A DNA stretch of 64,000 bases, taken from Methanobacteriota archaeon. GTDB lineage: Archaea; Halobacteriota; Methanomicrobia; Methanomicrobiales; Methanomicrobiaceae. Of this stretch, positions 36,364 through 47,852 are shown one piece after another. The notes beneath the pieces are model-generated. The model was not told the DNA's origin, searched no databases, and saw only the letters and a list, made by a program, of their open reading frames with translations. Each line of letters begins with the position of its first letter. Within the stretch, counting starts at the first letter, position 1. The position numbers and the translations under genes are program-made. Location: positions 83,376-147,375 of the forward strand of contig JAENYT010000003.1 of the NCBI GenBank assembly GCA_016841665.1, written 5' to 3'.

Positions 36364-37626
36364 TTATCCCGCAACAGGTTCTGCAACCCTTCCCATGAAG
36401 AGCACATTGCCGTTTTCGTCGTCTATGATCATGAAGACGAAGGGGTGGTCGGCCCGAAAGACCGGAACGGGTTCTTCTTCCATGGCTGCGCTCTTTCCAA
36501 ACACGACCGCGGTGGCAGCGGCGGCCTCTGTCCCCTCCTCGTTCACCTCCACGAAGGCCTTGTGGATCACATCGGTGATGAAGAGTTCATGCGTCCCATC
36601 CAACCCCGAAAAATCGGCACCGGGGCCGAACGCGGTCGGCATGCCCATTGCCGGGAGTGTATCGGTCAGCAGGTAGTCGCACTCAAGGGTGAATTTCGGG
36701 AAGTATACACGCACCCGCTCATCTCGCATCCCTGCAATCGCATCGGAAAGCTCTTGGGTTCCGAGGGCCTCTTCCGCCATCCCGATATCGTTCGTCTTCG
36801 GGAGGAGGATAAGCATGGAGAGCGACGTTGTACCCTCGTGTTCATACGGCATCCTCAGGATCTGGAGGCTGTCGGTCTCCGTGTAGTTATAGCGGGCGTC
36901 CTCGTCCGTTCTCTGCATCATATCGACCGTGACTGTCTCTCCCCGGGCGGTCGTAAACGCCCACTCGGAGGTCAGCTCCTCATCGAACTGGAGCACCCAC
37001 GCGCCCTTGAAGTAGACCGCATTGGTGATTACGAGGCGCGTGAGGGAGTCGATGGCCCCGGCGGGGATCAAGTCCTTGATTTTCTCTTCTGTCCGGTCCT
37101 CCACCCACCGGTTGATGGTTTGCCTCGACGCTTCGGGAGCGGATACAAAGTCCATATTTTCCACCTCCGCACCATAGTAGTCCTCTGCGACGGAGATGTA
37201 GCCGGGCAGGAACGCATGGGTTTTTTCGGCCCAGAGCGCATTTGCGGTGCGGAGCGTGAAGTTGCTATCGTTTCTGTTGATACCTGCAATCAGACTTCTG
37301 TATTCCTCCCTGAGAGAACTCTTGTTTTCAGGGAAGTAGAAGACGGAGCGGATCTCGTCCGCAGTCTCTCCCCCAGCCCCCTCGTAGGTCAGCGCAAGGG
37401 CCGTGGAGATGCTGTGGGGCGAGAAGAAGATGTTTTGGCCCTCGTTTCTCTCTTCGTCGCTGAGCGTGCGGTAGAGATCGCAGGCAAAGCGGTTGTTTGC
37501 CTCGATAACCGTCCCTGTGTCTGCGGGGGAGGGTTGTTCCTCAGCGGTCGTGGTGCACCCGCCCGCAAGGATGCCGAAGAGGACAAGTACCGCCAGGGCT
37601 CCGGTCACCATCACTTTGTGATTCAT
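36364..37626 (-). CDS. Serpin (serine protease inhibitor), lipoprotein
   Basis: Lipobox LAGGC; NIFFSPHSISTALALTYEGAGGETADEIRSVFYFP, ANALWAEKTHAFLPGY, VNRWVEDRTEEKIKDLIP, VFRADHPFVFMIIDDENGNVLFMGRV. Confidence 0.95.
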   Translation of the reverse strand: MNHKVMVTGALAVLVLFGILAGGCTTTAEEQPSPADTGTVIEANNRFACDLYRTLSDEERNEGQNIFFSPHSISTALALTYEGAGGETADEIRSVFYFPENKSSLREEYRSLIAGINRNDSNFTLRTANALWAEKTHAFLPGYISVAEDYYGAEVENMDFVSAPEASRQTINRWVEDRTEEKIKDLIPAGAIDSLTRLVITNAVYFKGAWVLQFDEELTSEWAFTTARGETVTVDMMQRTDEDARYNYTETDSLQILRMPYEHEGTTSLSMLILLPKTNDIGMAEEALGTQELSDAIAGMRDERVRVYFPKFTLECDYLLTDTLPAMGMPTAFGPGADFSGLDGTHELFITDVIHKAFVEVNEEGTEAAAATAVVFGKSAAMEEEPVPVFRADHPFVFMIIDDENGNVLFMGRVAEPVAG

Positions 37627-43824: not shown

Positions 43825-43933
43825 TAGATCTCACAGTATGTGGAGTTAAAGGAAAAAGTATTGTGATTTCTCTCGAATGCTCCCCCTTATATGAGAATGC
43901 ATCGGGGATGAGATCTCAATAAGAATAAAAGGA

Positions 43934-44130
43934 CGCCCCCGACAGGATCTGCGGAATGGGCTTCAAATGTTCTTTATTTTGCATTTTGCAGCAATTTACG
44001 TATCTCTATTTTAAGCCAAAATGGGAAAAATCTTGCGCGTGCCTGCACCGGTGAGTAGGTCCTCTCCCTCACAAGCCCAAAGCGCCATCGTTTCGTAATC
44101 AGGGCCAATTTTTGCGCACCAATCACCCCT
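43934..44130. repeat. Left direct repeat flanking the AT-rich cassette (tRNA-Asn 3'-end-like)
   Basis: cgcccccgacaggatctgcggaatgggcttcaaatgttc...gtgcctgcaccggtgagtaggtcctctccctc... aligns with 47660-47852. Confidence 0.9.
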
Positions 44131-44350: not shown

Positions 44351-45532
44351 TTAGCTATAACAGGGTGAAACAGTATCTTCTCTATTACTGCGAATATTCT
44401 GTTCCGGAACCACTGTTGCAGACTTTGATGTATCATTTATTTTGCTTTGTTTTGGACGAAGCCCAAAAGCTTCTTGGAAGCTCTTGGCATTGACAAATTT
44501 ATCAACCAATCCTTGATATGGTGGGAAAGCTCCTCCAAATCCGATAACTCTACGAGCATCGGCGATTGATTCCAATTGATCTGGATTCCAAAAAGGCGAA
44601 ACATATTGGTTTTTCTTAAGTGATGTCAATGGCTCATATCTCATTGGATACGAAACACACCCCATTTTGGCAATGTCCTGAATTATTTCCAAAAATGAAT
44701 TTGGATCATCCCCATAACCAGTTTCTTGATTATAGAAATTATACAGAGTATAGAAGAGAATTTTCCTTCGCTTAATGCCAGCCTCTTCGAGATGTTTAAC
44801 TGCTCTTTCTACCGCATTTTTTTCATCTTTAAAATCATACGCCATTCGGATTATCGGCGTTTTAATTTCTCCAATAAGTTGAGCCTTTTCTTCATCCATC
44901 AATCTAGCATCGAGACCTTGATTAAAATCAATTTTTAATCCTGTCTCTTTTAAATCGAAAATTGTTTTTTTCCAGAGTGGAGATGCTAGAAAATTGTTAT
45001 CCCATAGGATTACTTGCTTATGATTGGGATGAATAAATTTTTGTATATCCGAAATTGCAACTCTAATTTTACCTTCAAGTTTTGGGACAATACAAAATGG
45101 ACAGTTCCTGATGCAGCCACGTGTAGTGAACAATATCGAACTATCCCATTTTTCCCATTTCTCAATGGTATTCAGAATGTCATATGCGGGCATGTATTGT
45201 TCAGCTGCGTCATGCAATCCTATGTGAACATTAACAAAAGGATAGTGGGCTTTAACTCTATTAGGCATAATTGAAGCATACAGCCCTCCAACAGATATTT
45301 TTGCGTCGGGAAATTTTTCATGATAGAATTCTATTGCTTTGTGCACTGGAGACCAGGCATATGTGAAAAGCGAAGTGATGTATATTTTATCAGGATCGGT
45401 ATTTAGGTTCTGTTCGAGGCCACGAATTAAACTGATCTGATCTCCACGTGAACGATGGTACGAAGCCAGTTTTAATAACCCTAATGGAGGATATTTTGAA
45501 TAATACTGTGGCTCGACGAGAAGAATATCCAT
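44351..45532 (-). CDS. Radical SAM protein (possibly B12-binding N-terminal domain)
   Basis: MDILLVEPQYYSKYPPLGLLKLASYHRSRGDQISLIRG...TTRGCIRNCPFCIVPKLEGK (CX3CX2C). Confidence 0.88.
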   Translation of the reverse strand: MDILLVEPQYYSKYPPLGLLKLASYHRSRGDQISLIRGLEQNLNTDPDKIYITSLFTYAWSPVHKAIEFYHEKFPDAKISVGGLYASIMPNRVKAHYPFVNVHIGLHDAAEQYMPAYDILNTIEKWEKWDSSILFTTRGCIRNCPFCIVPKLEGKIRVAISDIQKFIHPNHKQVILWDNNFLASPLWKKTIFDLKETGLKIDFNQGLDARLMDEEKAQLIGEIKTPIIRMAYDFKDEKNAVERAVKHLEEAGIKRRKILFYTLYNFYNQETGYGDDPNSFLEIIQDIAKMGCVSYPMRYEPLTSLKKNQYVSPFWNPDQLESIADARRVIGFGGAFPPYQGLVDKFVNAKSFQEAFGLRPKQSKINDTSKSATVVPEQNIRSNREDTVSPCYS

Positions 45533-45630
45533 AAGTGGTATGTGTGGGTCTCTGATGTTAAGGATTCCGAAAATCAATCACTTGAGGATCCACATTATTG
45601 TGATTGATAGGATCCTTCGAATACTCGTTA

Positions 45631-47373
45631 TCAAACCTTCTCTGAATGGTCTATCAGACGGTAAAGTAAACCCATTACTGCCACGATTTGCGCCATGACC
45701 TTCAAACGTTCAGCTTCTGTCGTGCCTTCCAACCATTCCAGTGTATCATGCCCTTTTTCATGTTTAAATGAGTTGATGATTAAATCATAAAATGTGTATA
45801 CCATTACACCGAAGCGTCGATTTTTTTCTGGTTTGGGATGGAATTGTAATAGAGGGCCGCCTTTCCTTTCAGTTACGTTCCCAAAACCATAGGCCTTCGC
45901 AATTAAGTCAATAAATTTAGTTGCGTTTTCACCTGTTTTATCTTTAAGCAGTTCTTCAATGGAGTCGGCTACAGAATTTACAGGATTTAACAGTCCTTTG
46001 CCTTTGGATCTCTTTACGGAGTCCTTTACAGGTTTAGGGAGTGTTTCAATCATCTTGTTTAACTCTTCTCTTCTTTGTCGGATTAATTCTGCTTGTAAGT
46101 CTTTTTCTGAAAAATCAACTTGATCTGCAATTTGATCGAGTTCTTCCTTGATCTCTTCTCCGTGGGCATCAATAACGGTTTTAATTGCTAAAAAAGCCGG
46201 GTTTCCGGGGAAACTTCTTGATTTAACAGTGCTCTCTCTAACCTTTTTTATATCTTTTTTAGCTTCGGGTATGTTTCCCTTTTCAATTTTTTGTGAGATA
46301 CTTTTTAATTTACGAGACTTCACGATTTCTGCTTGATAGCGATTTGCAATTTGTAGTTGTTTTACACAATCAGCAACTTGATCAAAAAAAGGCCGAAAAT
46401 CCTCACTGTTGTATTCAAATCCATTTCTTCCTGCATTTTCACGGATATTTTCGGAGATTATGTGAATCTCTCCATATTGCCACTGATTATAAAATTCAGT
46501 ATAAAATGACTTAATTAAATTTTCATCTCCAATAGTCATCCCTTTCTTTTTAAAGAAAATACCGCCGTTTGGCCATTTTAGTACTTTATTTTCTTTTGTT
46601 GTAACAAACCACGCAATTGCAACAATCTTCTCCTTAACGGCAATTTTATATTGGATAATTGGCTCATAGTATAGATTTCCATTGTATGGGGGTCTGTATA
46701 TTTTCTCTTTATTAAACCGAATCTCAACATCAGGGAAGGAAATGCCATTCTCGATTAGATACTTGTTTACTTCTACTAACCGTGGGAATTTCACCAGGTC
46801 AAATGGTGCAGGGGCAATTTTTTGGAGATATTGCACAATTTCGCTATCAGAAAAAAATCGCATCTGATTCGGAAGTATTGTTTCGAGTCTTATTATGGTG
46901 AAGTGATCGTCTTTAAAAGATTCATTCTTTCCTAGCTCAACTTCTTCGATATCAGATGTGGCTTTTGTGAGGATATTTGTTATTGGCTCATTGCTTTGAT
47001 ATGCTTCTCTAAGTATTTCATTATCTATTTCTACCCTCAATTTTGGCTTATTTTTCATTTTCGATATAATTACAATCTTCATTGATGCCGACACGCCACT
47101 CCAAATCCCTAGACCTCTCCATCCAATCTGATCCTTTTCCTTTTTCGATTTGCCGATACTGAGAGCCTCTTTTAGGCCAGATTCGTCCATACCATCGGCA
47201 TCGTCGTGAATAACAAGAGTATTTCCATTTTCAAGATAGATATCGATATTTTTCGCGCCTGAATCTATGCTGTTCTGAATATATTCACGGACACAATTCA
47301 AATTTCCATCATAGAGACCAGAAGTAATTGTTTCAATTAAGCGTGCGCCGATAACCTCATTTGTAAATTCCAT
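45631..47373 (-). CDS. Hsp90/MORC-like GHKL ATPase protein (580 aa)
   Basis: IETITSGLYDGNLNCVREYIQNSIDSGAKNIDIYLENGNTLVIHDDADGMDESGLKEALSIGKSKKEKDQIGWRGLGIWSG: GHKL N-box and G1/G2-like motifs. Confidence 0.85.
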   Translation of the reverse strand: MEFTNEVIGARLIETITSGLYDGNLNCVREYIQNSIDSGAKNIDIYLENGNTLVIHDDADGMDESGLKEALSIGKSKKEKDQIGWRGLGIWSGVSASMKIVIISKMKNKPKLRVEIDNEILREAYQSNEPITNILTKATSDIEEVELGKNESFKDDHFTIIRLETILPNQMRFFSDSEIVQYLQKIAPAPFDLVKFPRLVEVNKYLIENGISFPDVEIRFNKEKIYRPPYNGNLYYEPIIQYKIAVKEKIVAIAWFVTTKENKVLKWPNGGIFFKKKGMTIGDENLIKSFYTEFYNQWQYGEIHIISENIRENAGRNGFEYNSEDFRPFFDQVADCVKQLQIANRYQAEIVKSRKLKSISQKIEKGNIPEAKKDIKKVRESTVKSRSFPGNPAFLAIKTVIDAHGEEIKEELDQIADQVDFSEKDLQAELIRQRREELNKMIETLPKPVKDSVKRSKGKGLLNPVNSVADSIEELLKDKTGENATKFIDLIAKAYGFGNVTERKGGPLLQFHPKPEKNRRFGVMVYTFYDLIINSFKHEKGHDTLEWLEGTTEAERLKVMAQIVAVMGLLYRLIDHSEKV

Positions 47374-47659
47374 TTTCCTTCACCACAATTGGATTTGAAA
47401 AACACCAAAAGGTCTACAATTAAGATCAATGGATAATTGACAAATATAGATATCGATTCTTAAAATGGATATTTCGAAATAATCTGAAATTTTCTAACTT
47501 AAAATTTCAAGAACAAAAACGTTGTCGAATAATGCTATCTTGAGCCTGTTCTCCTGTGGGTTGTTACCCCGTGATCAACAATAAATTCGAGACTCAAGCG
47601 TGCCGAAGAAACGATTGAAAAAAAACAGAGCGGGCCGCAACCGCACCCCACCAAAACAA

Positions 47660-47852
47660 CGCCCCCAACAGGATCTCCGAAATGGGCTTCAAATATTCGT
47701 CACTTTACATTTTGAAGCAATTTACGTCTCTCTATTTTGAGCCAAAAAGGGAAAAATCTTGCGTGTGCCTGCACCGGCGAGTAGGTCCTCTCTCTCGCAG
47801 GCCACAATCGCAATCGTTTCGTAATAAGGGCCAATTTTTTGTGCCTTATCCC
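47660..47852. repeat. Right direct repeat flanking the AT-rich cassette (tRNA-Asn 3'-end-like)
   Basis: cgcccccaacaggatctccgaaatgggcttcaaatattcgtc...; first bases identical to the 3' end of tRNA-Asn at 63948. Confidence 0.9.

Follow-up and report, generated by a model that had tools for sequence, protein, structure and literature searches.

A radical SAM protein and a MORC/Hsp90-type GHKL ATPase form a recurrent gene pair and a candidate DNA-modification module of antiviral defence

Two AT-rich genes in the window, which is the whole stretch of 64,000 nucleotides of archaeal DNA that was analysed, stand alone between direct repeats in a GC-rich chromosome, and they raise the question of what a radical SAM protein and an Hsp90- or MORC-like GHKL ATPase do together. 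An earlier note had proposed an undescribed two-gene system with a plausible role in defence or modification. That proposal is supported by the recurrent pairing of the two genes and by relatives that lie with DISARM, Pbe, HerA-NurA and PIN genes, while the activity itself is something that we infer. We consider the chances about evenly balanced that the pair is the DNA-modification module of a restriction-type antiviral defence in which the GHKL protein acts as an ATP-driven clamp or chaperone; DNA as the substrate, this role of the GHKL protein, the chemistry and the antiviral activity are all presumed in this proposal.

The cassette and its two proteins

The GHKL ATPase gene (45631..47373, minus strand; an open reading frame of 580 aa) and the radical SAM gene (44351..45532, minus strand; 393 aa from a conserved ATG) form a co-oriented pair, as had been reported, with 98 nt between the GHKL stop and the radical SAM start. 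An alternative TTG is present at 45577, and alignment with 14 relatives places the start at the ATG at 45532. The composition of the pair is foreign. Its GC content is 0.37 and the GC3 values of the two genes are 0.30 and 0.32, compared with mostly 0.67-0.76 in the large flanking genes measured, and the AT-rich character described earlier is thus borne out (GC3 about 0.3 versus about 0.7).

The cassette is flanked on the left (43927..44113, plus strand) and on the right (47653..47839, plus strand) by direct repeats of 187 nt that are 87% identical (E about 5e-61). These are the two copies found in the whole host genome, and a congener carries one copy at another site (L055). The repeats had been called att-like. 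They are real, but a role as attachment sites finds no support: no tRNA was found at the repeat site in a scan of the window, no tyrosine recombinase was found on the contig bearing the cassette, and no clean empty site was found in congeners, and the integrase reading was rejected on these results. The repeat looks like a degenerate gene end that the copies have in common. The two copies may be a trace of the entry of the cassette, and they are candidate attachment sites at most. Elsewhere in the window, a complete serpin gene (36364-37626, minus strand; PF00079, E 1e-117) was observed in this methanogen, adjoining a region common to the congener (L055).

The GHKL protein consists of an ATPase domain and a transducer or middle domain (about residues 4-404), followed by a helical C-terminal region. 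It matches Pfam HATPase_c_3 (E 5.1e-16). In its structural model (pLDDT 71.8, with the helical C-terminal third weakly modelled and assigned to no fold), about 285 residues within 4-404 align with TRAP1/Hsp90 at Z about 18, and about 285 residues align with MORC proteins at Z 15-17.5 (MORC3 17.5); MutL is also among the near-equal fold matches. The catalytic motifs are conserved in 8 relatives, and those quoted earlier for both proteins of the pair were found to be correct. On the minus strand, they comprise the N-box EYIQNSID (residues 30-37, 47263..47286; E30, Y31, Q33, N34 and D37 invariant), the G1 box DDADGM (residues 57-62, 47188..47205; D57, G61 and M62 invariant), the G2 box GWRGLGIWSG (residues 84-93, 47095..47124; G84, W85, R86, G87, G89, I90, W91, S92 and G93 invariant) and the Lys loop KKKGMTIGDE (residues 275-284, 46522..46551; K275, K276, K277, G278, T280, G282 and E284 invariant). 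By analogy with MutL, GyrB and MORC, the Lys loop is the candidate for the transducer-domain lysine that touches the ATP phosphate. The N-box Glu and Asn, the G1 and G2 boxes, the Lys loop, the Pfam match and the fold place the protein in the GHKL (GHL) superfamily. When the PDB was searched by sequence with the GHKL protein and the radical SAM protein each alone, only weak GHKL-domain or meaningless matches were returned.

The N, G1 and G2 boxes and a transducer-like domain are common to the window protein, to the MORC, Hsp90 and MutL ATPases, and to the HgiDII/BbrUII-type restriction enzymes. The window protein differs from all of these in its own C-terminal region and in that its relatives adjoin this radical SAM family in the examined loci. 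The C-terminus contains a conserved D-[LI]-x-[VI]-N-x-x-K-H-E-x-G motif (window 45690-45790, minus strand), which resembles HEPN-type motifs but has no arginine.

The radical SAM protein is made up of a B12-type Rossmann domain, a radical SAM barrel and a conserved C-terminal block. Its membership of the superfamily is indicated by the CxxxCxxC motif for the [4Fe-4S] cluster and SAM (CIRNCPFC, residues 140-147, 45092..45115, minus strand), in which C140, C144 and C147 are invariant in 15 relatives, and by a TIM-type barrel fold with Z 20-23; the Pfam radical SAM match alone is below the cut-off (E 6e-4). The model (pLDDT 81.8) is most similar to AprD4 (Z 23.1), MgmA (21.8), TsrM (20.8) and MtaB/MiaB (about 20) over most of residues 1-360. 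AprD4 is an enzyme without B12, and MgmA and TsrM are enzymes with B12. The B12-like N-terminal region proposed earlier was recovered as a B12-type Rossmann fold in the model, while the Pfam B12-binding match stayed under the cut-off (E 0.003). The unusual C-terminal domain that had been pointed out corresponds to a family-specific conserved block in the alignment of 15 relatives (residues 291-358, 44459..44662, minus strand; GCVSYPMRYEP ... ARRVIGFGGAFPPYQGLVDKF ... EAFGL), in which Y295, P296, M297, R298, E300, R327, R328, V329, I330, G331, G334, F336 and P337 are invariant. Thus the overall fold, a Rossmann N-terminus with a radical SAM barrel, is that of AprD4, MgmA and TsrM (Z 20-23), whereas the identity to them is only 15-17% and the C-terminal block is a different one; these three enzymes act on an antibiotic, a protein and tryptophan. 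A second radical SAM protein, 50% identical to that of the window, is encoded elsewhere in the host genome (L024, contig C68) together with two DGQHR proteins and an Exo_endo_phos/Lamin-tail protein, and this is probably a separate defence locus.

Pairing of the two genes across genomes

Recurrence of the pair elsewhere had been set beforehand as a test. A total of 84,980 species was scanned with the GHKL alignment as the sole query, so the radical SAM protein could not bias the result. The scan returned 21 loci in archaea and bacteria, and a relative of the window radical SAM gene was adjoining or within 1 kb in 19 of the 19 loci that could be evaluated. The two loci left out were L039, where the GHKL gene is truncated by the end of the contig, and L038, where a transposase-like gene follows a shortened GHKL gene. 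The gaps between the two genes range from -18 to 90 nt, except in L046 (0.95 kb). The gene order of the window is found in the archaeal loci L033-L037 and in L032, whose label is doubtful. Among the bacterial loci, longer forms of the radical SAM protein and shorter ones of the GHKL protein are found, often with two GHKL genes surrounding the radical SAM gene (L040, L045 and L047-L049). In the archaeal locus L021, which came from a separate search, the two genes are 1.5 kb apart and convergent.

The GC content of the pair is below that of its surroundings in every pair measured, including 6 of 6 relatives (0.32-0.42 versus 0.37-0.60). The distance matrices of the two proteins correlate among archaeal members (Mantel r 0.66 for n=8 and 0.73 for n=7, p 0.001-0.005), and common host descent may contribute to this correlation. 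Viewed from the radical SAM side, the partnership is looser. The GHKL gene was found in 3 of the 18 archaeal genomes with the radical SAM gene that were tested, which indicates that the radical SAM protein can do without it. When 45 radical SAM proteins were arranged in a tree, the GHKL label required six changes compared with fifteen for shuffled labels; the partnership is therefore clustered, yet it arose or disappeared on several occasions. The window protein groups with nine others in an archaeal clade, and seven of these ten have the GHKL partner. Deep placement in the tree is unsure because of long deep branches. The radical SAM family as a whole is patchy: within the phylum, 24 of 392 genomes have a match and neither of two congeners does, and this distribution disfavours the housekeeping function that would have spoken against a dedicated system.

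Two of these loci have features of their own. At 78% identity, the pair of L032 (JAAYJG010000296.1) is the one most closely related to that of the window; it lies on a 3.7-kb contig labelled Ruminiclostridium, the other end of which is methanogen-like, and this contig is probably misbinned. In L046, from an unclassified bacterium, a 315-aa gene lies between the GHKL and radical SAM genes, and a gene for a spore-photoproduct-lyase-like protein comes after the pair.

The constant company of the radical SAM gene at GHKL loci would also be expected if the GHKL protein were a dedicated Hsp90-like maturase or chaperone that loads the cluster or cobalamin of the radical SAM enzyme, the product of which would still serve defence. 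The best fold matches of the GHKL protein, Hsp90 and TRAP1, agree with this possibility, but the DNA clamps MORC and MutL match almost equally, and close radical SAM relatives with DGQHR partners have no GHKL gene. We regard the maturase as unlikely.

Defence modules and viruses around the radical SAM family

The radical SAM genes exchange their context among several kinds of module. In 9 archaeal loci, a gene for a DGQHR protein, related to DndB and DpdB (domain E 3e-27 in the one protein tested), abuts the radical SAM gene or overlaps it by 4 nt. Past the DGQHR gene lie DISARM genes in the archaeal loci L021, L022, L025 and L028, and PbeA/PbeC with a DndE-like gene in L023, L027 and L029, also archaeal. 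In L036, Pbe is located directly upstream of the GHKL-radical SAM pair. Methanohalophilus euhalobius WG-1MB is a strain in which Pbe, GHKL and radical SAM genes are all present. DISARM genes further adjoin the radical SAM gene in L091 and L097-L100. A more distant radical SAM gene ends an operon of DrmA, DrmB, DrmC and a large protein in L097 and L099, and a similar operon in L100, where DrmC was not called; in L098 it adjoins the Drm operon. Judged by the joint presence of DrmA and DrmB, all of these nine loci contain DISARM and the window does not, and PbeA together with PbeC was found in L023 and L036 and not in the window genome. The bacterial GHKL-radical SAM pairs are found with HerA (E 9.7e-42 to HerA chains) and an adjoining NurA (E 1.5e-6, with a Pfam match in 2 of 6 members; a search of the PDB with the NurA-type protein gave nothing useful), and others with PIN_8 nucleases and DGQHR genes. 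Radical SAM relatives in L092, L093 and L101-L107 have no defence neighbours.

In terms of modification enzymes, no classical methylase motif was found in the DISARM or Pbe operons with the radical SAM gene. A phosphorothioation (Dnd) partner was rejected, as DndC was below the cut-off in 13 of 13 radical SAM genomes, the host included. The window cassette has no recognisable restriction module, and six of the archaeal pairs closest to it, its own included, lack an adjoining restriction gene. The possibility that the host encodes such a module at another site was likewise rejected: neither DrmA nor PbeC was found in the host genome (85% complete), and no Drm gene lies beside the pair.

The family is also viral. 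Relatives are encoded by 455 IMG/VR stretches, and the window protein belongs to PHROG 9298 (220.7 bits), a phage radical SAM family with no assigned function. Unlike the window protein, the phage copies are mostly without GHKL. In 15 of 71 viral loci (L139:3730-4164 and 14 similar), the radical SAM gene has a small PD-(D/E)XK-like nuclease gene directly adjoining it or overlapping with it, often by 9 nt, and this is possibly a minimal modification-nuclease pair. ParB_N and N6/N4 methylases recur near the radical SAM gene in the 71 loci, as do, by eye and without a Pfam match, PP-loop-like proteins. Phages may use the radical SAM enzyme to imitate a host mark.

Radical SAM enzymes have a precedent in antiviral defence in the viperins (PMC12926258). 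If the window pair were a similar small-molecule system, the radical SAM enzyme would make a nucleotide analogue or signal and the GHKL protein would sense infection, which would suit the stand-alone pairs without a restriction gene. This is quite unlikely, since the architecture is different, with a B12-type N-terminal domain, and the fold resembles viperin far less well (Z 9.2 compared with 23.1 for AprD4). Membership of the prokaryotic viperins was rejected on this score and because no PADLOC viperin model matches, and DISARM and Pbe, the operons of which include members of the family, rely on DNA marks for discrimination. Modification of tRNA or other RNA, for repair or for protection against viral attack on RNA, is suggested by the presence of MiaB and MtaB among the top folds and by weak NCBIfam matches in the same direction. 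It is nevertheless very unlikely: C140, C144 and C147 are the sole invariant cysteines, so the N-terminal cysteines of a second cluster are not conserved and the protein fails as a MiaB/MtaB methylthiotransferase, and its neighbours (HerA-NurA, Drm, Pbe, ParB and DNA methylases) act on DNA. Finally, the ordinary neighbours of the archaeal stand-alone loci (a tRNA synthetase, a Na/H exchanger and an ethylbenzene-dehydrogenase domain) would fit a cassette that is a passenger of a variable region, or serves metabolism, and plays no part in defence. This is highly improbable, given that relatives are found repeatedly in viruses and beside modules of four kinds that are known or probable defence systems.

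A candidate route to a self mark

The DNA-modification module that we favour can be set against known systems. Class 2 DISARM consists of DrmMII, DrmA, DrmB, DrmC and DrmE, and the operons of the relatives hold DrmA, DrmB, DrmC and a large DrmE-like protein; in place of a methylase, which was not found, they have the radical SAM gene, partly with DGQHR, and the window has no Drm gene. PbeA, PbeC and a DndE-like gene, known from the DndCDEA-PbeABCD and CxC-DndE systems (PMC6459918, PMC10853773), adjoin the radical SAM gene in L023, L027, L029 and L036, where, in contrast to Dnd-Pbe, DndC is missing and the radical SAM gene, with or without GHKL, is in the modification slot. According to these papers, Pbe in its known form requires phosphorothioate and solitary Pbe may use other modifications; the other modification genes named there are methylases, and a radical SAM partner of Pbe is not mentioned in the text searched. 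No description of the radical SAM gene with DGQHR, DISARM, GHKL or HerA was found in the literature searched or in PADLOC.

The joining of one radical SAM core to at least four unrelated effector modules is the pattern expected of a modification component. In the proposed mechanism, the pair would arrive by horizontal transfer as a module of a restriction-type system, and the radical SAM protein, with its B12-type Rossmann domain, would be the modification enzyme that places an unusual DNA mark of self, filling the slot of the methylase in DISARM or of DndACDE in Dnd-Pbe. The GHKL protein would most likely be its dedicated partner, a dimeric clamp that closes with ATP or a chaperone of the MORC, MutL or Hsp90 type, which would load, activate or license the radical SAM enzyme on DNA. 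In other loci, the DGQHR protein would replace GHKL as an overlapping partner. Restriction would be provided by exchangeable neighbours, namely DISARM DrmA/B/C, Pbe, HerA-NurA or PIN. Because the window holds the modification pair alone, this pair would be a solitary mark-maker or would work with an effector that is not yet recognised.

More broadly, and with somewhat less than an even chance of being correct, there may be a class of antiviral systems in which self DNA receives a radical-SAM-made mark with the help of either a DGQHR protein or a MORC/Hsp90-type ATPase, and which is combined with four or more unrelated effectors (DISARM, Pbe, HerA-NurA and PIN); viruses carry the same enzyme, perhaps for evasion. 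If this is true, radical SAM chemistry would be added to the enzymatic means of marking DNA as self, and the partner of some 'solitary' Pbe and methylase-free DISARM operons would be explained. It would also give a function to PHROG 9298, a large unexplained phage family, and provide a prokaryotic example of MORC/Hsp90-type ATPases acting together with a DNA-modifying enzyme.
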